This document shows positions 3,138 to 18,560 of a DNA stretch of 36,024 nt, piece after piece. The stretch spans positions 1 to 36,024 of the forward strand of contig CABYPW010000018.1 of the NCBI GenBank assembly GCA_902520885.1, read 5' to 3'. How positions within the stretch are numbered: position 1 is the first letter of the stretch; every line of letters starts with the position of its first letter. The stretch comes from an uncultured SAR116 cluster alpha proteobacterium (lineage in GTDB: Bacteria; Pseudomonadota; Alphaproteobacteria; Puniceispirillales; Puniceispirillaceae). The notes beneath the pieces were generated by a model that did not search any database, had not been told where the DNA came from, and saw only the letters and a list, made by a program, of their open reading frames with translations. Position numbers and translations under genes: made by a program.

Positions 3138-4880
3138 ATGTTAGCGAAGCCGGCAAACCATACAAATCGCTCTGTAGCGTTTTCCACTCTTCAAGCTATT
3201 TTCATAGTAATGATTACTGGTATTAGCTTTGGGATTTTGATGTCAATTGTTTCAAACGCTTTTGTCATTGGTGTCGACTGGCTTTTTAATACTAGACACT
3301 ATTTTAATTTCCTAGATTTTTCTTTTTTTGGTAAACAACTCTCCCCAACGCCTTTAATAACACTTTTATGCGCAGTATTTGTAATATTATTTATTCGAAA
3401 AATCTTTTCTATTAGCAGATGGCATGGACCTGCAGACTCTATCTATGCTGCGCACCGAACAGATAATGAATTAGATGTAAAAGCTGGATTTGGTTCAACC
3501 ATTGCTGCTTTTATTTCAGCGGGAAGCGGTGCTTCAGTAGGACAGTATGGACCATTAGTGCACTTTGGAGCAACGGTAGGAAGCTACGTTAGAACACTAA
3601 CTAATGGGAGAATTAGCACTGACGTATTTATTGGATGTGGTGTTGCAGGAGCTATTGCAGCTGGTTTTAATGCCCCAATTGCCGGAACTATTTTTGCCTG
3701 TGAAACGATTTTAAGACACTTTTCTTTGCGTGCAGTAGCACCGGTAGCAATAACCAGCATCACTTCTGCAGGCATAAGCCAGATATTTTTTGGCAATGTG
3801 AATACCTTTTCGATGTCTGGAATTAATCCTGACCTAATGTTTTTGCTACCACTTGCTCTACTCACTGGTCCGATCTTTGGGATTTTATCAATAATTTATA
3901 TGGTTACGCTCAGAAAAACTTCAGAAGTAGCAAGAGACTTAAAATGGTCACCTATGAAACTATTAATCACTGCAGCACTGATTACTGGTATTACCGGTAT
4001 GTTTTTACCAGAGATACTTGGTTTAGGAATTGAGCATATAGAAAATATTCTTAATGATGGTTTCCATGTGCACTATTTGTTTTTCCTTCTAGTTGGCAAA
4101 TTAATTATTACTGGTGTTTGTATTGGATTTGGAATGTTTGGAGGAATTTTTTCGCCCGCTTTGTTTATTGGTGCTGCTGGAGGAGCATTATTTACAAAAG
4201 TAGCTGCCCTGATAGGCGGTGCTACTGTCGCCACAGCTATTGGACCGGGATTAGTAATATGCGGGATGGCGGCATTATCTAGTACAGTGGTGGGCACACC
4301 TATTGCTGGTGTCTTAATTATGTTAGAGTTAACAATGAGCTATGAATTAGCTCTAGCTGCAATGCTAAGTGTAGTAACAAGTTCGTTGGTAGCGCATTTG
4401 TTATTCGGCCACTCATTTTTCGACAGACAGCTATTAGATAGAGGGATTGATATTTCACAAGGTCGAAGCCAAATTGAAATGATGGAATTGTCAGTCAGGC
4501 AATTAGCAACAAGCGATTATGTAAGCCTTTCACAGGATACTATTGCAGAAGATGGCATTAAAGCCATGACCAAATCAGAGGTAAGTGAGGCTTATATATT
4601 AACTAAAGAACAACAATTTTATGGTAAGATTAGCCTGCATGGACTTCTTAAAATCAAAAAAAATAATCCTGTAACAGATGCACTCATTCAAAAACCAATT
4701 ATAATAAAGCATGATGCTTCTCTTCAACAAAGCATAGAAATAGCTAGTAAGTTTGTTGGAGAATCCATCCCCGTCGTAAATAAAGAAACAAAAGAAATGC
4801 TCGGTGTCGTAAGTGAAGCCGATCTTTTTCAAGCGTATCTTTTAACACAAAATAAAATTATAGATTTAGAAAAAAAGTAA
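3138..4880 (+). CDS. ClC-family anion channel/transporter with C-terminal CBS domains
   Basis: This is a ClC-family membrane protein for Cl- or another anion: about 440 residues of hydrophobic helices followed by a cytoplasmic tail with two CBS-like segments (about 455-510 and 520-575). Family landmarks are visible: GSGASVGQYGP (129-139), GFNAPIAG (176-183) and GGIFSP (335-340), the last matching the selectivity-filter loop. In the GREGP-equivalent segment the gating glutamate (E148 of E. coli ClC-ec1) is Tyr137. The internal proton glutamate position (E203) appears to be Thr190. The protein may therefore act as a channel or uncoupled transporter rather than a standard Cl-/H+ antiporter; this is inference. 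The ATG at 3138 begins the ORF. The gene is divergent from fliD and lies between flagellar genes without an obvious link to motility. Confidence 0.9.
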   Translation: MLAKPANHTNRSVAFSTLQAIFIVMITGISFGILMSIVSNAFVIGVDWLFNTRHYFNFLDFSFFGKQLSPTPLITLLCAVFVILFIRKIFSISRWHGPADSIYAAHRTDNELDVKAGFGSTIAAFISAGSGASVGQYGPLVHFGATVGSYVRTLTNGRISTDVFIGCGVAGAIAAGFNAPIAGTIFACETILRHFSLRAVAPVAITSITSAGISQIFFGNVNTFSMSGINPDLMFLLPLALLTGPIFGILSIIYMVTLRKTSEVARDLKWSPMKLLITAALITGITGMFLPEILGLGIEHIENILNDGFHVHYLFFLLVGKLIITGVCIGFGMFGGIFSPALFIGAAGGALFTKVAALIGGATVATAIGPGLVICGMAALSSTVVGTPIAGVLIMLELTMSYELALAAMLSVVTSSLVAHLLFGHSFFDRQLLDRGIDISQGRSQIEMMELSVRQLATSDYVSLSQDTIAEDGIKAMTKSEVSEAYILTKEQQFYGKISLHGLLKIKKNNPVTDALIQKPIIIKHDASLQQSIEIASKFVGESIPVVNKETKEMLGVVSEADLFQAYLLTQNKIIDLEKK

Positions 4881-4901: not shown

Positions 4902-5264
4902 TTAAGCTATAATATCGATTTGATCTTTAAAACGCGGTGTATCTTCATGAATGTTTGACGTTCTTGCTTCACGAGTGGCAGCCATATTGTGATTGTAAGC
5001 CGGAGAAAACGAAGAACGAGCCAGAAAAAACTCTTCTGCACTAATTGAAGATGGGGCCATTCTTGGATGCGATATCGTAATTTGTGGCCTGTTTTCCTCG
5101 TACCTATGAGATTTTTTCATTTCATCTAAAGGCTCTAGCCCATAAATAGTTTGTTGAAGAGTTGGCATAGTGTTTGCACGTATATGACCAAGCGGTTGTA
5201 CCATTGCATCAGGTTTAATTTGAGCGGTTGGTCCAACTAATTGTGTAGATAAAGGATAAAACAT
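4902..5264 (-). CDS. Hypothetical protein, about 120 aa, divergent from fliS
   Basis: I do not recognise this protein. It has no predicted membrane segment and no cysteines, and it is rich in Pro, Gln, Ala, Met and His (for example MPTLQQTIYGLEPL and HPRMAPSSISAEEFFLARSSF). The frame can be extended to a TTG at 5291, but the ATG at 5264 (MFYPLSTQLVGP) gives a more normal start; no clear Shine-Dalgarno precedes either. It is divergent from fliS, with about 55 bases between the two starts, and its stop lies about 20 bases from the end of the ClC gene. Location inside the flagellar cluster suggests, but does not show, a flagellar role. The composition (extended, Pro- and Gln-rich) would fit a poorly ordered or exported protein. 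Confidence 0.55.
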   Translation of the reverse strand: MFYPLSTQLVGPTAQIKPDAMVQPLGHIRANTMPTLQQTIYGLEPLDEMKKSHRYEENRPQITISHPRMAPSSISAEEFFLARSSFSPAYNHNMAATREARTSNIHEDTPRFKDQIDIIA

Positions 5265-6012: not shown

Positions 6013-7116
6013 CTAATCTATTTCAATATCTATAGACAAATCAGATTTGGGCAATGGCTTTTCTATCATAAGCTTTTTCATCTTCTCTATCAAAGTGGTT
6101 CTGCGTAATTTTAGTATCGATGCCGCTTGGCTCACCATACCTTCTGTTTTTTCTAAAGCTGCTTCGATTAACACTACCTCCACATCTCTCAAGTGTCTTC
6201 TAAGGTCAATAGTATCAAAATAGTGGAACCATTGTTTATAATGAGATGGATGAGGAACTGGCTTTTCCATCTCTGGCGGAAGTTGTAACTCTTCCTCTGT
6301 TGCTAAATCTGCTGTTGCATCCCATAATAGCTCTTGCTCATCTGCTCTGTCAGGAACTTTAAGTCTTAGTAAATTTTCCCTGACGTTTTTGCTATTAATC
6401 TTACTATCTGGAAAAAGGACACTTGCCCGCTCTATAACATTGCGCAATTCTCTAACATTTCCAGGCCAAGAATACTTAGACAATTCCAGAAAACCTGTTT
6501 CATCAAAATTTGGCTTAGCTAAACTTTGAGTTTGTGCTGAGATGGCCTCAACAAGGTCTGGTATATCTACAGCACGTGAAGCGAGCGGTGGCACTTGCAC
6601 TGGAAACACATTGATACGATAAAACAAATCGGACCTAAACAAACCTTCATCAATTTTCGATTCAATATTTTGGTGTGTTGCGCAAACAAGGCGAAAGTCT
6701 ACTTCTATTTCGTCACTCCCTCCAACTCTCTGAATTGTCCTTTGCTCAAGTGCGCGTAATAACTTTGATTGTAAAGGCATCGGCATATCACCAATTTCAT
6801 CTAGAAATAATGTACCACCATCTGCCTGTTCAAAGCGTCCTGCCCTTGTTTTTTCTGCACCAGTAAAAGAGCCTTTTTCATGACCAAATAACTCTGATTC
6901 CAATAGTTCAGAAGGTATGGCAGCGCAATTTACGGAAATAAGCTTTCCTTTTCTTTCAGATAATTCGTGGATAGCTCTGGATATAACCTCTTTGCCTGTA
7001 CCTGTCTCTCCTTGAACTAAAACGGCTGTTGGCGTTTTGGCGACCGCAAAGATAAGTTTTTTTAGCTCTTCAATTACGGCAGACTTACCTACAATTATGT
7101 CGTCAATATTTCCCAT
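6013..7116 (-). CDS. FleQ/FlrA-like sigma-54 activator without N-terminal regulatory domain
   Basis: This is a bacterial enhancer-binding protein that remodels sigma-54 RNA polymerase using ATP. The AAA+ module starts almost at once. Walker A is GETGTGKE (36-43), the sigma-54 contact loop is GSFTGA (82-87, usually GAFTGA), Walker B is TLFLDEIGD (102-110), arginine-finger candidates lie in RSDLFYR (161-167), and sensor 2 is WPGNVREL (217-224). The C-terminus (about 305-350, [20 protein letters not shown] then [13 protein letters not shown]) is a Fis-type HTH whose RRTTLIEKM signature closely resembles FleQ and FlrA. At 367 aa it lacks the 120-130-residue N-terminal domain of those proteins. 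The best-supported promoter in front of it is sigma-70 type, as expected for a class I master gene. It is divergent from the flbD-like gene. Confidence 0.88.
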
Positions 7117-7158
7117 GAAAATGCCTAACCATTTTAAGTGTCATTATTTTGTTCACAA

Positions 7159-7187
7159 ATTATAGAAAAAAGCAAGTCCTGTGTCAG
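7159..7187 (-). promoter_or_regulatory. Sigma-70 promoter for the FleQ-like activator gene
   Basis: On the minus strand there is CTGACA, a 17-base spacer and TATAAT: five of six at -35, six of six at -10, ideal spacing. The implied start is near 7152, giving a leader of about 35 bases. A TGTCA sequence at 7139-7143 lies just downstream of the start. Confidence 0.6.
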
Positions 7188-7275
7188 AATTTTGAACCAC
7201 ATTTAAGAAATATTATGTTTATTTTTTATATTATATTTCAACACACTAGGAGTTTTTTTTGGTAAATTTTCTTTT

Positions 7276-7290
7276 TGGCAAGCTTTTTGC
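7276..7290 (+). promoter_or_regulatory. Sigma-54-type promoter for flbD-like/fliE operon
   Basis: The element is TGGCAAGCTTTTTGC, with GG at 7277-7278 and GC at 7289-7290 and an exact 10-base gap. It lies 41 bases before the ATG of the flbD-like gene and is the likely start of the fliE-fliJ run. Confidence 0.8.
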
Positions 7291-7331
7291 CTTTACCCCT
7301 TCGAACAATTTTTTACGTGAAGGAAAAATAA

Positions 7332-8513
7332 ATGAGCGATGTTCACCTTATTACAGAAATGTTCTCTTCTGTGGACCGCCTTTCAGAGATTTTGCAGAAC
7401 CGTCAAATACCGTTTATTTGCAGTGATAATATATCAGCTGACGTTGGTATATCATCTAGTAAATGCCAGACTCTCATCATAAGCGAACAATACTATAAAA
7501 AAGTTGGTAATGATGCACTAATTTCATTTGCGAAAACTTTAAGAGCTAGCCAGATATGTGCGGTAAGTGAAAACCAACCAGAATTTGGAATAACATCTGA
7601 ACTCGGCGGTAAGATGATTTTCCTTCGCCTGCCTATCCAAGAAAGTGAAAATATTAGCGAAGATTATGGATTGCAAATGCTTGCAACATTAGTATCCAAT
7701 TCAGGCGTTGTTGCGGCAAGTGACGAAAGTAGTCAAAAATTATTCAACTTGGCAAAGCGCGTTGCCAATACAGATGTGACTGTTTTTATAAACGGCCCAA
7801 CTGGAACTGGCAAAGAAGTATTATCTAAGTTCATACACAATAATTCAAAACGAAACGAAGCGGGATTTATTGCCGTAAATTGCGCAGCTATTCCTGAAAA
7901 TATGCTAGAGGCTATCTTATTTGGCTATGAAAAAGGTTCGTTTACGGGAGCTTCTACTACTAATAAAGGTATATTTAGAGCAGCGGACAACGGAACATTA
8001 TTACTGGACGAAATCTCAGAAATGCCAATTTCTCTACAGGCAAAATTATTGCGAGCCTTGCAAGAAAAATCTGTTACGCCAATTGGCTCTCAAACATCAA
8101 TTCCTGTTGACGTCAGAGTCATAGCCACAACGAATAGGAATATGGTTGAAGAGATCAGAAATGGAAATTTCAGAGAAGATTTATATTACCGATTAAATGT
8201 TTTTCCTCTTTCCACATTAAGCCTGGCTGAGAGAACATCTGACATTATCGCTATTTCAACAGTGTTGATCAAAAGACACTGTAATGAAATTGAGAGTATA
8301 CCATTTTTAGCAAAATCTGCTCTTGACTTATTGGTAAATTATACCTGGCCAGGCAATGTTAGAGAGCTAGAAAATGTAATTCAGCGCGCATTGGTATTAT
8401 CAGATGGAAAAACCATTAGTGCGGAAGATATCATTATCGATGACACTCTATATCAGGGAGGCGGTCAAGCACACATTCAAAACATGTTGGAAAAACAAGC
8501 TATAGCAGGATAA
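7332..8513 (+). CDS. FlbD-like sigma-54 activator lacking the C-terminal DNA-binding domain
   Basis: The N-terminal part (about 1-115) is a degenerate, receiver-like segment in the place where FlbD and FlrC carry a receiver; I see no convincing phospho-acceptor Asp. The AAA+ domain follows: GPTGTGKE (155-162), GSFTGA (202-207), LLLDEISE (223-230), REDLYYRLNVFPL near 281-293 and WPGNVREL (339-346). The central domain is close to Caulobacter FlbD (NCAAIPEN, LLLDEISEM, LQAKLLRALQE). The protein stops at residue 393, shortly after the AAA+ lid, without the Fis-type HTH expected there. fliE begins 10 bases later, so no frameshifted HTH can be hidden. A DNA-binding-less activator of this type is known, for example FlgR of Helicobacter. 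It heads the fliE operon behind a sigma-54 promoter, so positive feedback is possible. Confidence 0.88.
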   Translation: MSDVHLITEMFSSVDRLSEILQNRQIPFICSDNISADVGISSSKCQTLIISEQYYKKVGNDALISFAKTLRASQICAVSENQPEFGITSELGGKMIFLRLPIQESENISEDYGLQMLATLVSNSGVVAASDESSQKLFNLAKRVANTDVTVFINGPTGTGKEVLSKFIHNNSKRNEAGFIAVNCAAIPENMLEAILFGYEKGSFTGASTTNKGIFRAADNGTLLLDEISEMPISLQAKLLRALQEKSVTPIGSQTSIPVDVRVIATTNRNMVEEIRNGNFREDLYYRLNVFPLSTLSLAERTSDIIAISTVLIKRHCNEIESIPFLAKSALDLLVNYTWPGNVRELENVIQRALVLSDGKTISAEDIIIDDTLYQGGGQAHIQNMLEKQAIAG

Positions 8514-8523
8514 GGGGTTTAAA

Positions 8524-8838
8524 ATGACGAGTATAAATTCATCAGTTGTAAAACTTGATAGCCTTCACGAGAAGGTTATAGAAAAAGCAGCAGAAACACT
8601 TGGCACATCAGGCCAAAACGTTGAGTTTTCTGATAGAATGAAAAATGCTTTGACAGAAGTCGCAGATGCACAGAAACAAGCAGCTGACAGCATGAAGGCC
8701 TTTGATCTTGGGCTTGAGACAGACTTGAGTAAAGTTATGGTTGACCAGCAAATATCATCCCTTGGATTTCAGCTTACTCTAAACGTACGAAATAAAATGT
8801 TGAGTGCCTACAAAGATATCTTAAATATGCCAGTTTAA
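8524..8838 (+). CDS. fliE: Flagellar hook-basal body protein FliE
   Basis: FliE joins the MS ring to the proximal rod and is among the first substrates of the export apparatus. The 104-aa protein ends with the family signature region (QQISSLGFQLTLNVRNKMLSAYKDILNMPV; compare S..F...LQVRNKLVDAYQEIMRM.V). It is helical and lacks cysteines. The start has a good Shine-Dalgarno (AGGGG) immediately after the flbD-like stop codon. It is the second gene of the sigma-54 operon and precedes fliF, the usual order. Confidence 0.93.
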   Translation: MTSINSSVVKLDSLHEKVIEKAAETLGTSGQNVEFSDRMKNALTEVADAQKQAADSMKAFDLGLETDLSKVMVDQQISSLGFQLTLNVRNKMLSAYKDILNMPV

Positions 8839-8894: not shown

Positions 8895-10607
8895 ATGGCT
8901 GAATCTACAACGATAGATAATATGAATTCAACTGCGGTAATAGAGCAGCGAAACGGAATCTTGTCAAATGTGCGCAGACTGACATCTGACCCCAGTTTTA
9001 AAAAGTCCTTTCCAACAATTATTGCCGTGTCTGTTTTAGCATTAGGTCTTATAATTTATATGTTATTGCAACAACCAAGCTTAACACCGTTATATGCATC
9101 ACTACCAGAGGCTGAAAAAGCGCGAGTTGTAGAGGCATTAAAAAATGCAGGATATGACGTAAGCATTGATCCATCTACTGGAGATGTATTGGTTCCAACT
9201 GGTGATTATCACAAATCACGTATGACACTGGCAGCACAGGGACTACCTTCATCCGTGCCCGATGGATATTCGGCTATAGGTGATATACCAATAGGTTCTA
9301 GTAGGTCAGTTGAAAATATTAGATTGAAGCAGAGTCAAGAGATAGAGCTTGCACGCTCGGTTGGTGAAATACAAGGAGTGGTTGCAGCTCGTGTTCATTT
9401 GGCAATTCCTGAAAAATCTGTTTTTGCGAGAACATCTACGGCGCCCACAGCCTCAGTTTTTGTTCAATTGAACGAAGGAAGAACATTAAGCAAACAACAA
9501 GTAAATGCAATTATTCACTTGGTTTCTTCTTCTGTTCCTAGCCTAGCAAAATCAGATGTAACAGTAGTAGATCAATATGGTGGACTGCTGTCAAACCCAA
9601 ATGATGACCCTGCAAGCGCACTATCTGATGCACAATTAGAACATCGAATTAAAGTTGAAGCTATTTATCGTAGCAGAATTATATCCCTAGTCTCACCTCT
9701 TGTTGGAGCTGGCAATGTAACTGCTCAAGTGAATCTTGATATAGACTTTACAAAAAGTGAAATCACTGAAGAAAGAGTTGACCCAGAAGGAAATGCACTT
9801 CGCAGTGAGCAAAAAAGCTTGGATCTAACTGCTGAAGAAACAGCCAGGGGTATTCCTGGGGCAACAACTAATAGAGCTCCTACCCAGGCAGAAATTGCAA
9901 CTCAGCAAAATGCAGGGAACGAACCTGGTGAGTTTAAGACTCGTTCTTCTAACGAAGTTCGAAATTATGAAGTAAGCCGTAAAGTTGAGACGACATTACG
10001 ACCATCAAATAAGATCAATCGTATTCAAGCATCCGTTTTAGTGAGAGAAAAGGAGAGCGTTAACCCAGAAACAGGGCTTTTAGAAGCAGTCTCATTAACG
10101 CCAGAACAAATTGCAAACATCGAACAGTTAGTAACAAATGCAATCGGCATCGATAAAGAAAGAGGTGATCAGTTAACAGTTGAAAGTGCTGCTTTCGTCT
10201 CGAGTATAGAGGGTATATCCAAGGCTTGGTATGAAATTGATTTTTTTACAAACCTTATTCAACAGGTAATGACCTTCCTGGTAATGGGTGTTATTGTTCT
10301 TGGAGTTATTCGTCCGCTTATCAATCGCATTATGATACCAACAGCATCTGGAAAACCTGGAGAAGCGATGGTTGGTTTAGAAGATGATCCGGATTTAGAT
10401 GCAGTTGAAATTGAAGAAGGTGAGAGTCTTGAAGATATAAAAGCTAAGTTAAAGCCTAAAAAAGCAGCAATTTCTCCTGAAATGTTAGATACTGCAAACT
10501 CTTATGATGATAAGGTGGCTATAATTAGAATGATTGTTGGAGAAGAATCTGGACGAGTTGCTAATGTGTTTAAGTCTATGATGAATGCTGATAAAGAACC
10601 TTCATGA
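8895..10607 (+). CDS. fliF: Flagellar MS-ring protein FliF
   Basis: FliF builds the MS ring in the inner membrane, the base on which the rod, C ring and export gate assemble. The 570-aa protein has a first membrane helix (about 40-58), the periplasmic ring-building motifs with the typical YASLPEAEKARVVEALKNAGYD segment, then VARVHLAIPE-like sequence (GVVAARVHLAIPEKSVF), a long low-complexity linker (about 310-370), a second membrane helix (about 458-477) and a cytoplasmic FliG-binding tail (about 545-570, DKVAIIRMIVGEESGRVANVFKSMM, the last part matching the end of other FliF proteins). AGGA lies upstream of the ATG. Confidence 0.96.
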   Translation: MAESTTIDNMNSTAVIEQRNGILSNVRRLTSDPSFKKSFPTIIAVSVLALGLIIYMLLQQPSLTPLYASLPEAEKARVVEALKNAGYDVSIDPSTGDVLVPTGDYHKSRMTLAAQGLPSSVPDGYSAIGDIPIGSSRSVENIRLKQSQEIELARSVGEIQGVVAARVHLAIPEKSVFARTSTAPTASVFVQLNEGRTLSKQQVNAIIHLVSSSVPSLAKSDVTVVDQYGGLLSNPNDDPASALSDAQLEHRIKVEAIYRSRIISLVSPLVGAGNVTAQVNLDIDFTKSEITEERVDPEGNALRSEQKSLDLTAEETARGIPGATTNRAPTQAEIATQQNAGNEPGEFKTRSSNEVRNYEVSRKVETTLRPSNKINRIQASVLVREKESVNPETGLLEAVSLTPEQIANIEQLVTNAIGIDKERGDQLTVESAAFVSSIEGISKAWYEIDFFTNLIQQVMTFLVMGVIVLGVIRPLINRIMIPTASGKPGEAMVGLEDDPDLDAVEIEEGESLEDIKAKLKPKKAAISPEMLDTANSYDDKVAIIRMIVGEESGRVANVFKSMMNADKEPS

Positions 10608-10658
10608 TTGATAAATACGTAGCTTAGAAGATATTTTTGCTAGAATGTGAGAAAAAAG

Positions 10659-11702
10659 ATGGCTGAGTCAGAAAATAAATCAGATGGAAATGATCAAACT
10701 GTATATGATTCATTGAACGGTATACAAAAATCTGCAATCCTGATGATGCTTCTCGGGGAAGAGGAAGCATCTGAAATAATAAAGAATCTTGGTCCTAAAG
10801 AAGTACAGGCCCTTGGTGCTGCTATGTATTCAGTTCAAGGATTAGGCCAAGACACTGTAAATCAGGTGCTCGACGAGTTTTTATTTATCATAAAACAGCA
10901 AACGAGCTTGGGCCTTGGAGCTGGCAATTATATTAAAAATGTTCTTAATAAAGCAATCGGAGAAGAGCGCGCTCAATCTGTTTTAAGCAGGATTGCACCA
11001 TCCAACTCAGAACGACCTATAGAAATTTTGGATTGGATGGACGCCCCCTCAATATCTGATTTGATTTCAGATGAACACCCGCAAATAATTGCTTTAATTA
11101 TTTCTTATTTGGATGCTTCACTTGGTGCAGATGTTCTTAACCTTTTACCTGAAGAAATGCAGGCTGATGTTATAGCTAGAATTGCTAACCTTGATACAGT
11201 AGGGCCCGATGCACTTAACGAACTTGAAGATGTAATGCAAAAGAAATTCAAAGCTAACACATCGCTCCGCGCCACGCAGGTCGGAGGTATAAAAGCAGCA
11301 GCAGCAATAATGAATTTTACTAATCAAGAGCAAGAAAGTAAAATTATGAAAGTTCTTGGCAAGGACGATAAGCACCTAGTTGTTGCAATTCAAGAAAGCA
11401 TGTTTGTATTTGAGAATCTTCTTAAATCAGATGATAAATCTCTTCAGATGCTCCTTAGAAATGTAGAAACTGACGACCTAATTCTTGCCCTCAAAGGAGC
11501 AGATGAGATTCTGAGGGAAAAACTATTTTCTTGCATGTCATCACGTGCGGCAGCGAATATTGTGGATGAGATGGAAGCTCTCGGTCCCGTTCGCCTAAGT
11601 GAGGTACAAGAGGCTCAGAAACGAATAATTAACGTCGCGAGACGAATGTCGGATGAAGGATCTATAGTATTAGCCGGCCGTGGCGGTGAGGACTACGTCT
11701 AA
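10659..11702 (+). CDS. fliG: Flagellar motor switch protein FliG
   Basis: FliG is the C-ring protein that contacts FliF and the stator and generates torque. The N-terminal part (GIQKSAILMMLLGEEEASEI...LGPKEVQALGAAM), the middle EHPQIIALIISYLD motif and the C-terminal motor domain (NVETDDLILALKGADEILREKLFSCMSSRAA, GPVRLSEVQEAQKRI) are all present and in the normal order. The charged torque-helix residues (D, K, E, R near DDLILALKGADEILREK) look intact. A GTG at 10647 is in frame, but the ATG at 10659 (MAESENKSD), 8 bases after a GAG, is more likely, giving 347 aa. Confidence 0.95.
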   Translation: MAESENKSDGNDQTVYDSLNGIQKSAILMMLLGEEEASEIIKNLGPKEVQALGAAMYSVQGLGQDTVNQVLDEFLFIIKQQTSLGLGAGNYIKNVLNKAIGEERAQSVLSRIAPSNSERPIEILDWMDAPSISDLISDEHPQIIALIISYLDASLGADVLNLLPEEMQADVIARIANLDTVGPDALNELEDVMQKKFKANTSLRATQVGGIKAAAAIMNFTNQEQESKIMKVLGKDDKHLVVAIQESMFVFENLLKSDDKSLQMLLRNVETDDLILALKGADEILREKLFSCMSSRAAANIVDEMEALGPVRLSEVQEAQKRIINVARRMSDEGSIVLAGRGGEDYV

Positions 11703-11743
11703 TTAAAGAAAGATAAAATTAAATATTTAATTGGAATACCAAA

Positions 11744-13063
11744 ATGGCAAGTGAACAAATTACCTACGCTGATGAACAAGCTGAGCTACCCAATGCGTTG
11801 GAAGATTCCGAAATCGCGAGGATAATGAAACTTGTGACTGAGTCAGGTTATAAAAAATCTGAAAACGCACCCACTAGAAAAAAACAGGAGTTTAAACCAA
11901 GGTCTCTTGTTGAAATTGCTATGGAAGCGCAAAAAAAACTGGATAACGAAGATAAAAAATCAAAAAATGAGTCGTCACAAACCAAAGGTGCAAAACCAAA
12001 TAAAGGTACAGATACAGACATAGACACAGATAAAAATGAAGATGAGCCAGTCAAAGCTTCGTCTGTCGAAATTGAGGAAAAAGATTCTCAACAAGTAGAG
12101 TCCCCCTCTTCCCTTCCTGGTAATAATGACATTGAACTAGCTGGTGAGCAAATTGGTCTTAACGCCACTATGCCGATTGACAACGACACTACAACCTCAT
12201 CACAAAATGCTGAAAGTAGCATAGCTGAGCCAATTGCTGATTCTGGTGAAGGTGACCAAAGCGAAAAAAATAGCATTCCTGACAATATTGAAGCCTACAC
12301 TGCCCAAAGCACTGATGAATTAACCGTTCAATATAACAAAGGTTATAAGGATGGTATAGAAGCTGGAAAAAATGAAATGGAAATAGATTTACAAGAAAAG
12401 TTTTCCAAACAATTAAGCATACTTGATGCACTTATTTCAAATTTCACTAAGAATAATTATGCCGATACAGAGCAATTAGAAAAAGATATACGAACAACTA
12501 TCTTATCACTAGCAAGTGAGCGTGCAGGATTTGCCATAAAAGAAATGCCTGAACATTTTGTTAAAAGAATAGACAAGCTTATTTCTCGAGTTGGCACGAG
12601 CAGTAAAAATCCTATTATAAAATTAAATAAGGCAGACTTGAGCCATGTGGAGATGGTAAAAGAAAAATCGGAGACCCTCTCGAAATTTACTTTTTCTGAG
12701 GACGAGACACTTAACCACGGCGATGTAGCTATATGTTTAGGTGGAATCGAAATAGAAGATATAATAGAGAAGCGTATTTCTCTTACACCAATAGAAACCT
12801 ATGAGGAAAAAAATATTATTTCAGAACCACTTACCAAACCAAAAGCGGAAATATCTAATTCTTCGGACACTTTAGTTGGTCAAAATGAACAAAATGCTAA
12901 ATTAAATGATACCGAGAATAAATCAACACAACAAAATAAATCTGATGACAGATCAGAAGTAATTAAGCATGAGGATGAAGCCAAGGGTGAGGAAAAGAAT
13001 GATAGTGAAATTGAGATAACTACTGAAAATTCCTCTGAAAAAATCCGGGACGAATCATCATGA
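11744..13063 (+). CDS. fliH: FliH-like export ATPase regulator with long acidic extensions
   Basis: FliH binds and restrains the FliI ATPase and links it to the C ring. The family core is recognisable at about 196-350: a YNKGYKDGIEAGKNEM segment (compare GY..G...G) followed by a helical region and an HGDVAICLGGIEIEDII segment like the (D)(A/R)(I/V)..GG.....T sheet in FliH/YscL proteins. The assignment rests on this and on the fliG-FliH-fliI order. At 439 aa it is almost twice the E. coli length (235 aa). The extra sequence is low-complexity, acidic and Ser/Thr-, Asp-, Asn- and Lys-rich at both ends (for example DTDIDTDKNEDEP and the last 90 residues). Its stop overlaps the fliI start (ATGA). 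Confidence 0.85.
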   Translation: MASEQITYADEQAELPNALEDSEIARIMKLVTESGYKKSENAPTRKKQEFKPRSLVEIAMEAQKKLDNEDKKSKNESSQTKGAKPNKGTDTDIDTDKNEDEPVKASSVEIEEKDSQQVESPSSLPGNNDIELAGEQIGLNATMPIDNDTTTSSQNAESSIAEPIADSGEGDQSEKNSIPDNIEAYTAQSTDELTVQYNKGYKDGIEAGKNEMEIDLQEKFSKQLSILDALISNFTKNNYADTEQLEKDIRTTILSLASERAGFAIKEMPEHFVKRIDKLISRVGTSSKNPIIKLNKADLSHVEMVKEKSETLSKFTFSEDETLNHGDVAICLGGIEIEDIIEKRISLTPIETYEEKNIISEPLTKPKAEISNSSDTLVGQNEQNAKLNDTENKSTQQNKSDDRSEVIKHEDEAKGEEKNDSEIEITTENSSEKIRDESS

Positions 13064-14382
13064 TATCTGTTCAGGAGAAACTTTCTAAAAGTATCCATTC
13101 ATTAAATTTGGATCAGCCTATTTCTGTTTCTGGAAGAGTTAACCGATATGACGGACAAATGGTAGAATGTGATGGTTTTCCAGCAACAATCGGATCCTTA
13201 TGTGAAATTGATACAGAAACCAATGTACCTGCAATAGCAGAAATTATTGGATTTCATGGAGGACAAAATCTATTGAGCCTTCATGATTTTGGTGCTCGCA
13301 TAAGCGTTGGTGCAAAAGTGCGCGTTATAGATGATGGATATATGATACCAGTTGGCGAGGGTTTGTTAGGGCGCGTTACTGATGCAATCGGATTACCATT
13401 GGATGAAAAGCCCATTCCAACATTAAATGACAAATGGCCTTTGTTAGGAAAGGAATTAAATCCTCTTGCTAAAAATCCTGTGGACACCCCCTTGGATGTT
13501 GGAGTTCGTGCAATAAATAGTCTTCTGACTGTGGGTCGGGGTCAGCGTTTAGGTATTATCGCTGGTTCTGGTGTGGGTAAATCAATCCTGCTCGGAATGA
13601 TGAGTAAATATACCGAAGCAGATATTGTTGTCGTTGGAATGATAGGTGAGCGTGGACGAGAAGTTGGAAGTTTTGTAAATACCATTTTTTCGGAAGAATC
13701 AAAAGAAAGAACAGCTATAGTGGCTGTACCAGCAGACAGGTCTCCCTTGCTGCGAATAAGAGGAGCTGAGAGAGCAACTGCAATCGCAGAATACTTTCGT
13801 GATAAAGGGAAAAATGTCCTCTTAATTATGGACTCGCTTACAAGAGTTGCGCATGCTCGAAGAGAAATTGGACTTGCCCTTGGTGAACAACCAACTTCAA
13901 AGGGCTACCCGCCCTCCGTTGTTTCCATGATACCTCGTTTGATAGAAAGAACAGGGAGTGGCGTAAGAAATCAGGGAACTATAACAGCCATTTACACTGT
14001 TCTAGCTGATGGAGATGATTCTAATGACCCTGTTGTGGATACAGCGCGTGCTATTCTTGATGGCCATATTCTGTTATCTAGAAAACAAACACAAATGGGG
14101 GTATACCCCGCTATTGATGTACCTATGTCGGTTAGCCGCGTGATGAGCGAAATCACTGACGAAAATTTACAAAAAAGTGCTCAAAAATTTAGGAAACTCG
14201 TATCATTATATATGGAAAACCGTGATTTGATTTTAATGGGTGGATATACATCAGGGCAAGATCCAGAATTAGATGAAGCAGTGACTCTTTGGCCAAAATT
14301 AATGGGACATATACAACAGGCTGAAACTGAAAGAGCTGACTTTGCGACAAGTAAAGAGGCCCTATTGAGCCTTATCAAATGA
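13060..14382 (+). CDS. fliI: Flagellum-specific export ATPase FliI
   Basis: FliI is the hexameric ATPase of the flagellar type III export apparatus, homologous to F1-ATPase beta. The 440-aa protein carries Walker A AGSGVGKS (168-175), the GERGREV motif (196-202), Walker B LLIMDSLTR, and the export-ATPase signature LGEQPTSKGYPPSV. The ATG overlaps the fliH stop (ATGA), indicating coupled translation. Length and domain order match the family. Confidence 0.97.
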   Translation: MISVQEKLSKSIHSLNLDQPISVSGRVNRYDGQMVECDGFPATIGSLCEIDTETNVPAIAEIIGFHGGQNLLSLHDFGARISVGAKVRVIDDGYMIPVGEGLLGRVTDAIGLPLDEKPIPTLNDKWPLLGKELNPLAKNPVDTPLDVGVRAINSLLTVGRGQRLGIIAGSGVGKSILLGMMSKYTEADIVVVGMIGERGREVGSFVNTIFSEESKERTAIVAVPADRSPLLRIRGAERATAIAEYFRDKGKNVLLIMDSLTRVAHARREIGLALGEQPTSKGYPPSVVSMIPRLIERTGSGVRNQGTITAIYTVLADGDDSNDPVVDTARAILDGHILLSRKQTQMGVYPAIDVPMSVSRVMSEITDENLQKSAQKFRKLVSLYMENRDLILMGGYTSGQDPELDEAVTLWPKLMGHIQQAETERADFATSKEALLSLIK

Positions 14383-14416
14383 CAAACTCTTTTTGCAGAT
14401 ATGGTGTGGACTTCGG

Positions 14417-14842
14417 ATGAAAAACAAATCAATATATGAGCGATTTACACTAAAACAACAGATTGGTATATCGAGGCAAGCGGAAGCAATGCGAACTCTT
14501 AACTCTGAACTCAAAAAGTCACAAGAATTAGTTCAACAGTTGACCGAAATTGCCAATCAAACCGAAATAAAAATAGGTGAAACAAACGCTATTTCCTTAC
14601 GCTCCTCCTCTTGGTATGGAACAAGAGTGCAGGAACAGCTTGAAACAACAAAGAACCGAAATAAATTCTTACAAAAAGAAGTAGATGACTCAAAAAAAAT
14701 GCTTGCCAAGGCAGTCCATAAAAAAAATAAATCAGAAGAGTCGTGGCATCAATACGAAGCGAGTGAACGAGCGAATAAAGAAGAAAAGTTGGACAGAGAA
14801 GTAGCAGACCGTAAGAGAATGCCTAGAAAATTTGGCAGATAG
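14417..14842 (+). CDS. fliJ: FliJ-like coiled-coil export chaperone
   Basis: FliJ is a short antiparallel coiled-coil protein that acts as the central stalk of the FliI hexamer and helps chaperone recycling. This 141-aa protein is strongly charged and helical through most of its length (LNSELKKSQELVQQLTEIA; VQEQLETTKNRNKFLQKEVDD; SEESWHQYEASERANKEEKLDR), has the usual FliJ length, and follows fliI directly. FliJ proteins are poorly conserved, so the call rests on shape and position. The frame opens at a TTG (14393), but the ATG at 14417 gives a better N-terminus. The C-terminus is basic (ADRKRMPRKFGR). Confidence 0.75.
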   Translation: MKNKSIYERFTLKQQIGISRQAEAMRTLNSELKKSQELVQQLTEIANQTEIKIGETNAISLRSSSWYGTRVQEQLETTKNRNKFLQKEVDDSKKMLAKAVHKKNKSEESWHQYEASERANKEEKLDREVADRKRMPRKFGR

Positions 14843-14885: not shown

Positions 14886-14900
14886 TGGCATTTTATTTGC
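14886..14900 (+). promoter_or_regulatory. Sigma-54-type promoter for fliK operon
   Basis: The element is TGGCATTTTATTTGC, with GG at 14887-14888 and GC at 14899-14900 and exactly 10 bases between. It lies about 40 bases before the fliK ATG, in the gap after fliJ, so fliK-fliN can be transcribed separately from fliE-fliJ. Confidence 0.75.
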
Positions 14901-14939: not shown

Positions 14940-16442
14940 ATGACACATGTTACCGGTGGTACAAACACCAACGTTCAGTCTTCTCAAACTGCAAGACAAG
15001 CAGATAAACAAGATAATCAATCTGATGCTTTATTTGAAAATATATTCTCAATAGTGAGCGAACTTGACCAAGATTCTATTAATTTTATAAGTAGTGAATT
15101 AAAATTAAAACTGAATTCTGAGGAGAAAAATGTTTGGCACGTGATAGAGGCAAATTTAAATGATCCGGACTCTTACACAGGAGACCTTGAAGAAAAGAAC
15201 AACAGCAACCTTGCTACCGCAATAGGAAAACTAAGGTTACTTTTGAATGAGAAAACTTCACCAGAAAACATTGATGAGGGTGGATTAAAAGAAAAAATCG
15301 TTTCATTGCATCTTACGAATTCATCGAATAAAAATAATGCCTCAGAAAGAAATTCTAACGAAATAAAAATAGAAAAAACACCTGCCGCACATCCATTTTC
15401 ACGCCAAACTTTGGCTTATGCTAACGCCAACCAAAATTCTCTGCCTATAAATAAATTAAGCAATTTTTATGAAAACCCCGCAAGTAGTGATGACCTCACC
15501 AAAGTAATTAAGTTAATTGAACAAGCAATTGTATCAAAAAAATCAAATAATAACCCTTCAGATATAAACACAGAAAAAAGTTTTATAAATACTTCCAAAC
15601 TCAAAAGTACCAGTGCATTGGATAAAGCCATGGAGGTATTAGACGAACAAAAAGTGGGTAAAAAAACTAATGCTGGTTTTGAAAATTTAGAAAGCCTCAA
15701 AAAGAAAGAGACAATTTCAGTCTCTAAGGATGGTTTTGATAATAAAGATTTTTTAAATACACAGGTTTATAAAATCCCCAATTTAAAACCACCCTTGATT
15801 AACTCTCTAAATACCAAAAGTAATTCAAAAGAAAACACAACAGGAACTTTGACGAGGCAAGTGGAATTAAGTCAGCAATTTACTTCAAATGCAACCAACC
15901 AATCAACTATACAAAATAACGGTTTAGATATGCATTCTGGTGGTAATTCAGAGCAAGACTCTAACGAATATCAATCGCAGAATCAGATACTTAGAGCCAA
16001 CTCTCCTTTGTCTACCATTCAAAAGCTGAATATGGCTGATAAAGCTTGGAAAGAAGTCCTCGTACGTCAAATAGAAACGCAATTAAAAGATGGTAATAAA
16101 ACTCTAGATATATCTCTAAATCCTAAACAATTAGGTAGAATGACCGTTTCCATTAATATATCAGGAGATGATGCATCTATTCAAATTTCTACAGAGACCA
16201 CTGCCGCTGCCAACATGTTACTAGAATCAGAAGGCAAACTGGCACAGATGATGCAGGATATCGGCTTGCGGTTGAGTTTGCTTCAAGCAAGCTTTTCAAG
16301 CAAGCACGAAAAGGAGACAAAACAAGGCAGTGATAATGAAAAATTATCAAAAAACAATAAAGAATTGTTGGAAGATAAAACTGGACTGAGTAAAACAAAT
16401 TTGGAAAAAATAGATAATTCAATTTTAAATATAATTGCATGA
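14940..16442 (+). CDS. fliK: Flagellar hook-length control protein FliK
   Basis: FliK acts as the molecular ruler that stops hook growth and switches export specificity by contacting FlhB. The long N-terminal part (about 1-350) is low-complexity, rich in Asn, Ser, Lys and Gln, and lacks cysteine, as is typical of FliK rulers. The C-terminal hook-length domain (about 370-450) is recognisable: LDISLNPKQLGRMTVSINIS followed by ETTAAANMLLESEGKLAQMM and DIGLRLSLLQASFS (compare the family L.P..LG.v.V and L......L...L...G). At 500 aa it is longer than E. coli FliK (375 aa). The last 50 residues are charged and probably disordered. Confidence 0.9.
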   Translation: MTHVTGGTNTNVQSSQTARQADKQDNQSDALFENIFSIVSELDQDSINFISSELKLKLNSEEKNVWHVIEANLNDPDSYTGDLEEKNNSNLATAIGKLRLLLNEKTSPENIDEGGLKEKIVSLHLTNSSNKNNASERNSNEIKIEKTPAAHPFSRQTLAYANANQNSLPINKLSNFYENPASSDDLTKVIKLIEQAIVSKKSNNNPSDINTEKSFINTSKLKSTSALDKAMEVLDEQKVGKKTNAGFENLESLKKKETISVSKDGFDNKDFLNTQVYKIPNLKPPLINSLNTKSNSKENTTGTLTRQVELSQQFTSNATNQSTIQNNGLDMHSGGNSEQDSNEYQSQNQILRANSPLSTIQKLNMADKAWKEVLVRQIETQLKDGNKTLDISLNPKQLGRMTVSINISGDDASIQISTETTAAANMLLESEGKLAQMMQDIGLRLSLLQASFSSKHEKETKQGSDNEKLSKNNKELLEDKTGLSKTNLEKIDNSILNIIA

Positions 16443-18424: not shown

Positions 18425-18451
18425 TGTCATAAGTATGTCAATATTATGACA
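18425..18451 (+). promoter_or_regulatory. Candidate FleQ-like enhancer: phased TGTCA half-sites
   Basis: TGTCA occurs at 18425-18429 and 18436-18440 and its complement TGACA at 18447-18451, each 11 bases apart, i.e. about one helical turn. The central part, GTCAATATTATGAC, matches the Pseudomonas FleQ box (GTCAATAAATTGAC) at 11 of 14 positions. The array ends 95 bases upstream of the fliO sigma-54 element, a normal enhancer distance. Binding by the FleQ-like protein encoded at 6013-7116 is inferred. Confidence 0.5.
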
Positions 18452-18545: not shown

Positions 18546-18560
18546 TGGCATGAGTTTTGC
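18546..18560 (+). promoter_or_regulatory. Sigma-54-type promoter for fliO operon
   Basis: The element is TGGCATGAGTTTTGC, with GG at 18547-18548 and GC at 18559-18560, gap 10. It lies 41 bases before the fliO ATG, the same arrangement as at the flbD-like gene and fliK. Confidence 0.8.

Follow-up and report, generated by a model that had tools for sequence, protein, structure and literature searches.

How might a bacterium use two adjacent sigma-54 activators, each of which has lost a part that the other retains? This question is raised by a 36,024-nucleotide contig (CABYPW010000018.1, assembly GCA_902520885.1) of an uncultured SAR116 cluster alphaproteobacterium, referred to here in its whole length as the window, in which two divergent genes of a flagellar cluster encode a FleQ-like protein (6013-7116, minus strand) and a FleT-like protein (7332-8513, plus strand). 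We interpret the pair, with a probability of about 0.85, as a FleQ/FleT system of the Cereibacter (Rhodobacter) sphaeroides kind that works as a mixed activator with staged promoters. This system is already known, and what is new here is its wider occurrence and a few new details. Published work is cited by PMC number from the excerpts available, and G, C and L numbers are our handles for genomes, contigs and loci, with G000 as the window's assembly.

The domain contents of the two proteins, including a Fis-type helix-turn-helix (HTH) that is found in one of them, are as follows.

6013-7116, minus strand: FleQ-like activator, 367 amino acids; AAA+ at 6598-7095, Fis-type HTH at 6070-6192, no N-terminal domain.
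7332-8513, plus strand: FleT-like activator, 393 amino acids; AAA+ at 7716-8210, lid at 8229-8432, no HTH.
7332-7694, plus strand: FleT N-terminal domain with a receiver-like fold and lost phosphorylation-site residues, from alignment and predicted structure.
8433-8510, plus strand: short FleT tail (residues 368-393) in place of the FleR/FlrC linker and HTH, from alignment and model.

An earlier note on this DNA had described the FleQ-like protein as an AAA+ module with a Fis-type HTH and its partner as an N-terminal domain with AAA+ and no HTH; coordinates and Pfam layout agree. Pfam places Sigma54_activat at residues 8-173, the lid at 180-253 and HTH_8 at 309-349 of the FleQ-like protein, with nothing before residue 8, and Sigma54_activat at 129-293 and the lid at 300-367 of the FleT-like protein, with no Pfam match to an HTH and none in the approximately 125 residues ahead of the AAA+ module. 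The Walker A (GETGTGKE / GPTGTGKE) and Walker B (LFLDE / LLLDE) motifs and the GSFTGA loop are intact in both, as the note had also reported. The best PDB sequence matches are Pseudomonas aeruginosa FleQ for the first protein (2.7e-85) and Vibrio FlrC for the second (1.7e-85, with the next family at ~1e-64).

The FleT-like protein stops 26 residues after the lid, at 8513, and since the fliE ATG lies at 8524, only 10 bp on, there is no space for a lost HTH; residues 376-393 have a predicted local distance difference test (pLDDT) score below 50 in the predicted structure. The FleT-lineage proteins measured have 179-191 residues after GAFTGA, compared with 229-298 in the gammaproteobacterial (gamma) FleR/FlrC found with the same Walker A and GxFTGA patterns; the exception is L135 with 177, where the locus ends before the protein does. 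Local truncation was rejected because the same tail length is found across the lineage. The broader idea of a locally truncated or decaying activator would account for the loss of both the HTH and the receiver residues, but with a recurring tail length and retained AAA+ motifs it is hardly credible. All five motifs checked are kept in 53 of 53 unique FleT cores, although this conservation is partly by construction, because the rows had been selected with patterns for Walker A and GxFTGA, two of the five. By these patterns 4 of 80 loci (L124, L125, L134, L145) gave no protein and some others only the FleQ-type one; FleQ cores failed the strict Walker A (GKE) pattern in 4 of 37 cases and the Walker B pattern in 1 of 37, and the former dropped the FleQ of some loci (L016, L038 and L040-L042 among them) from the 96-row tree and the first promoter count described below. 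As a separate observation, FleQ Walker A ends in GKD rather than GKE in 9 of 47 pair loci (L029, L030, L031 and L075 among others), which may mean altered ATP handling; all FleT cores have GKE.

Phylogenetic placement supports a FleT-like identity. In a quick tree of AAA+ cores (96 of 223, hand-chosen for spread), the 30 HTH-less proteins formed one group (support 87), with 11 fliE-linked, HTH-bearing sphingomonad-type proteins as its sister (joined at 99) and gamma FleR/FlrC next; the 21 FleQ proteins lacking an N-terminal domain (N-less), the window's included, also formed one group (99). A careful tree of 63 of these 96 rows gave the FleT group a support of 92/83, and gamma FleR was there not one group. 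In both trees the window FleT groups with proteins without an HTH from Octadecabacter, Thalassovita and further Rhodobacterales. A 71-row FliF tree gave a similar arrangement, in which 14 FleT-linked FliF formed one group (99), with sphingomonads next and gamma rows apart. The name "FlbD-like" used in the earlier note was rejected: the protein groups with FleR/FlrC in both activator trees, and its NCBIfam FlbD score is 294.7 bits against an equivalog cut-off of 750 bits. Those tree rows that we take to be FlbD-type, from an HTH type assumed for them, fall outside the FleT and FleR/FlrC grouping in both trees.

These data fit, with moderate support, a single HTH loss after the split from HTH-keeping sphingomonad relatives. 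Relatives with an HTH, which the note had foreseen as a sign of purely local loss, do exist in that sister group, and none occurs within the FleT lineage. Three sphingomonad-type genomes (G525, G522, G503; L170-L172, L177-L179) encode a FleQ-like protein with a short N-terminus and an HTH-bearing FleR-like protein, a possible intermediate stage. An HTH-bearing FleR was also found in G042, G272, G352 and G174, and of these four, G042 and G272 were searched for a close FleQ, with no match in either. Regarding the source of the clusters, PMC7277832 derives that of R. sphaeroides from gammaproteobacteria, and PMC12363192 speaks of two Rhodobacterales clusters as donated by other orders of alphaproteobacteria. 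The latter view suits the FliF tree, which does not include R. sphaeroides, because its Rhodobacterales rows group with those of SAR116-type and further alphaproteobacteria. The named locus closest to the window's FliF in that tree is from a SAR116-cluster genome.

The N-terminal domain of FleT aligns with the FleR/FlrC receiver, and the residues on which a receiver depends are gone: both the phosphoacceptor Asp and the conserved Lys are lost in 10 of 10 FleT rows and kept in 15 of 15 gamma FleR rows. In the 27-row alignment (A4), HTH_8 matches 17 rows and Response_reg 15; these counts, which come without row names, equal 15 gamma plus 2 sphingomonad rows and 15 gamma rows, respectively. A structure model built from a 10-row FleT-only alignment has a folded N-domain (pLDDT 86.8). 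Foldseek returned no match for this domain at E<=0.001, the best being a receiver at 5.9e-3 with TIR domains among the others listed. VIA-align ranked receiver 2b4a first (Z 9.6, 107 aligned, root-mean-square deviation 3.3) and gave the FleR receiver 7w9h a Z of 8.2 (104 aligned, 3.6), and also listed an unrelated Rossmann protein (Z 9.1) and TIR domains (8.6). By position and alignment with FleR, the modelled domain is likely, though not proven, to be receiver-like. As a receiver-like domain without the phosphate-accepting Asp makes phosphorylation input unlikely, the note's proposal that the HTH-less partner supplies regulatory input is probably wrong. FleT has been listed without N-terminal and DNA-binding domains (PMC3162934, PMC7175178), and another paper, in the part available, describes both FleQ and FleT as lacking N-terminal regulatory domains. 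The window FleT, with its folded N-domain, departs from these statements, which may themselves rest on domain scans, as Pfam is blind to the window domain too. A more speculative extension, which we hold to be doubtful, is that across alphaproteobacteria the dead FleT receiver docks on N-less FleQ, so that two genes rebuild one full activator (a receiver-shaped interface from FleT, the HTH from FleQ, AAA+ from both) and the dead receiver sets ring composition and the promoter switch.

The space between the two genes provides a second line of evidence.

7276-7290, plus strand: predicted sigma-54 promoter of fleT-fliEFGHI, TGGCAAGCTTTTTGC, by sequence match.
7183-7196, plus strand: FleQ-box-like palindrome GTCA-N6-TGAA, ~88 bp upstream of the fleT promoter.
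7138-7151, plus strand: a further conserved copy of the box-like element, GTGTCATTATTTTG, which recurs at 7181-7194.
7172-7186, minus strand: sigma-54-like element TGACAC-N5-TTGC (GA for GG) facing fleQ, kept in six aligned same-genus genomes.

Both the 7276 site and the 7183 box are conserved in the alignment of six same-genus genomes. All 47 pair loci carry a plus-strand sigma-54 site, and all but two of them (45) also have a FleQ box with no more than one mismatch. Among 46 distinct intergenic sequences, the box occurs in 44 (resampled mean 2.2, maximum 7) and the site in 46 (mean 1.65, maximum 5), the controls being first-order Markov resampling rather than exact shuffles; a first count under stricter selection (box 37/39, site 39/39) agrees with this later, looser one. 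The two loci without a box (L069, L070) have a FleQ with a changed recognition helix, and L068, in which the helix is also changed, has one box with a mismatch, which fits FleQ and box changing together. The Rhodobacterales-type FleQ of these three loci stand on long branches. The window FleQ HTH carries RRTTLIEKM, compared with RRTTLVEK in gamma FleQ, and the published FleQ box contains GTCAAT and ATTGAC two nucleotides apart (PMC10723142). Thus a sigma-54 promoter with FleQ sites at the fleT operon, a feature of the FleQ/FleT system, appears to be present judging from sequence. The element at 7172-7186 is a possible fleQ promoter, and fleQ itself may be under sigma-54 control. Sigma-54-type sites precede flagellar genes at 5163, 7276, 14886 and 18546, which we take to be the four flagellar promoters that the earlier note had counted. 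Across the window, sites with up to two mismatches number 77 against a mean of 54.8, a weak excess reached by 2 of 100 shuffles.

Among this assembly's matches to the sigma-54 activator family, only FleQ and FleT carry the GxFTGA loop. The two other NtrC-like activators (G000:C19 26500-33700, L168), which we presume to be NtrC and NtrX, are without it, so FleQ and FleT look like the only sigma-54-competent activators of the genome, in which sigma-54 may serve the flagellum only.

To place the pair in a wider context, we surveyed 121 genomes of the same order (SAR116-type, the window's included), and found FleT in 75, FleQ in 70 and fliF in 78, with all three in 67 and none in 40. Every same-contig FleQ-FleT pair (69/69) is divergent, with 214-443 bp between aligned parts, and the pair is retained by four families within the order and also beyond it. 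A search aimed at Rhodobacterales covered family f108, with FleT in 2 of 13 genomes. A divergent complementary pair, which had looked unusual to the note, therefore belongs to a known system that is common in the order. Outside the order, adjacent divergent pairs occur in at least G171, G038, G269, G179, G550 and G551, and a plasmid of Octadecabacter arcticus carries the same divergent pair with fliE-F-G-H-I, in a cluster that also includes fliD and a chloride-channel gene. The order-wide count leaves out two rows of the FleQ search (G412:C171 and G022:C8, E ~4e-76, 516/521 amino acid frames), whose genomes are still FleQ-positive via other rows. Two assemblies have two pairs each (G429 on C28 and C29, G446 on C125 and C188), reflecting duplication or mixed strains, and G008, with 7% contamination, has extra copies.

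Several observations weigh against the proposed FleQ/FleT reading. FleT occurs without FleQ in seven genomes, none of which has another N-less FleQ at E<=1e-40; in all six of those whose contig position was read (G002, G006, G016, G441, G466, G485; the seventh is G478) FleT lies within ~700 bp of a contig end. FleQ is found without FleT in two genomes, fliF without FleT in four, and FleT without fliF in one; in G134 and G540 FleQ and FleT are on separate contigs. A search of Thalassovita autumnalis (L067), whose FleT lacks an HTH, with the window FleQ gave no N-less FleQ at E<=1e-40, and the 725 bp upstream of fleT there contain no sigma-54 site when up to one mismatch is allowed. Four sphingomonad-type genomes (G518, G514, G524, G505) have a FleQ-like match, which in G518 has a longer N-terminus, but lack a FleR/FleT-like match at E<=1e-70. 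The genomes compared are related to one another and do not count as independent samples. R. sphaeroides FleT is not among the tree rows, and the case for kinship with it is built on relatives from the Rhodobacterales and on published accounts. FleQ boxes across the window are not above chance (11 against 9.4 expected), and in P. fluorescens the motif was considered unreliable at the scale of the genome (PMC6120874); for these boxes only positional conservation counts as signal. RpoN had no match in the window's assembly or in FleT-bearing G001, G003, G017 and G029, and was present without FleT in G025, G028 and G030. It was matched in 19 of 24 FleT-bearing relatives, the 24 being those with a clear FleT match among 31 relatives with the window's genome included. 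A near relative, G009 (FleT 96% and FleQ 99% identical), has rpoN, and G000 contains just the last 47 bases of the 7.5 kb around this gene, at base 1 of contig C28; the missing RpoN is therefore probably an assembly gap.

As a separate observation, the expected place of fleQ in Thalassovita (L067 369-6178) holds genes for a short CheA-like protein, CheR, CheB and a methyl-accepting chemotaxis protein, divergent to fleT. This organism, with FleT and no FleQ detected, together with the motifs kept in the preselected FleT cores, would suit a different arrangement, in which FleT alone forms an enhancer-free homo-hexamer acting from solution, like FlgR or CtcC, and FleQ only turns on the fleT operon. 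Activators without an HTH are indeed known, as the earlier note had said of FlgR (FlgR, CtcC; PMC3162934, PMC7175178). We consider this arrangement improbable, since FlgR and CtcC have, according to PMC7175178, a phosphorylation-controlled response-regulator domain, the receiver residues of the window FleT are lost, the pair stays together in four families and beyond, and R. sphaeroides FleT by itself fails to activate flagellar promoters (PMC11999139).

According to the excerpts on R. sphaeroides, FleT lacks a DNA-binding domain, cannot activate flagellar sigma-54 promoters alone and forms hetero-oligomers with FleQ (PMC11999139, PMC7277832). There, FleQ acts with sigma-54-2 to transcribe the fleT-fliEFGHIJ operon, and class III genes are turned on by the hetero-complex (PMC11999139, PMC7277832); the control step is that FleT gets made and then joins FleQ (PMC11999139). 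By analogy, a FleQ/FleT mixed complex to which FleQ brings DNA binding probably also forms in the window's organism. The note had proposed such a complex, which matches the published one in HTH loss, operon and conserved neighbourhood. FleQ, cut to AAA+ and HTH, would bind GTCA-N6-TGAC boxes and, with RpoN, fire the divergent fleT-fliEFGHI operon. FleT, a FleR/FlrC relative without HTH or working receiver, would then join FleQ assemblies through AAA+ contacts, and the mixed AAA+ complex, anchored to DNA through FleQ only, would activate later flagellar promoters in an order of promoter classes carried over from R. sphaeroides. FleT would thus be a stage switch through being made and not through receiving phosphate, and its remnant receiver may be a contact or structural part. 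One could also imagine that FleT modulates FleQ, or puts a brake on it, instead of co-activating, somewhat as FleN, a second ATPase, tunes FleQ in P. aeruginosa (PMC10723142). This is very unlikely, as a pure brake needs neither sigma-54 contact nor ATP hydrolysis, both of which fit the GAFTGA, Walker and FRxDL motifs kept by FleT, and the available R. sphaeroides accounts describe co-activation.

The remaining features of the cluster are listed below. By gene order, with an open reading frame (ORF) in the fliJ position, fleT heads a predicted operon with fliE-F-G-H-I, as in the published FleQ/FleT system.

8524-8838, plus strand: fliE, directly 3' of fleT.
8895-10607, plus strand: fliF, from a profile match and the FliF tree.
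10647-14842, plus strand: fliG, fliH, fliI and the ORF at 14393-14842, which is fliJ by position only, with no NCBIfam match.
14886-14900, plus strand: sigma-54 promoter match before the ORF at 14940 (fliK position).
18437-18450, plus strand: exact FleQ-box palindrome GTCAATATTATGAC, ~100 bp upstream of the 18546 site.
18546-18560, plus strand: sigma-54 promoter match before a fliO-like gene (18602, below the Pfam cut-off) and fliP (19069).
5163-5177, plus strand: sigma-54 promoter match before fliS (5300).

The window's cluster also contains fliD (658-2940) and a CLC chloride-channel gene (3138-4880). Such a channel gene recurs in the flagellar cluster of the Octadecabacter plasmid (L065 3077-4819) and directly beside the unlinked FleQ of G540 (L192 48-1448), a linkage with no obvious reason.

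Hetero-oligomeric sigma-54 activators have been described as rare (PMC4145663 among the sources), and a FleQ/FleT layout throughout a marine order suggests that the design is common. The HTH-keeping sphingomonad relatives, some of which encode an N-less FleQ at another genomic site, offer a step series for the dependence of one activator on another, and the receiver remnant suggests re-examining the statement that FleT is without an N-terminal domain. No paper joining SAR116, flagellar and FleQ was found in the literature searched, which does not cover everything printed.

Among known systems, the closest full-domain lineages are the gamma FleQ/FlrA and FleR/FlrC proteins of Pseudomonas, Vibrio and others. 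In the gamma loci examined, a FleQ-type gene lies upstream of fleR and FliF follows, and the FleQ HTH motif and FleQ box type are common to the window. Unlike the window pair, gamma FleQ and FleR/FlrC each combine an N-terminal region with an HTH, and the receiver residues of FleR/FlrC are retained; the C-terminal HTH and phosphoacceptor Asp of FleR/FlrC are missing from the window FleT. FlgR (Helicobacter) and CtcC (Chlamydia) also lack a DNA-binding domain (PMC3162934, PMC7175178), but unlike FleT are listed with a response-regulator domain (PMC7175178), and the excerpts mention no HTH-bearing partner for them. HrpR/HrpS of Pseudomonas syringae are likewise co-dependent hetero-hexameric activators, although both lack only the N-terminal domain and show no complementary loss (PMC4145663). 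The window FleT, from a SAR116-type host, differs from FleT as described in the literature in having a predicted folded, receiver-like N-domain. The pair otherwise resembles R. sphaeroides FleQ/FleT in having an HTH-less FleT ahead of fliEFGHI(J), a partner gene for a FleQ with AAA+ and HTH, and a sigma-54 cascade.

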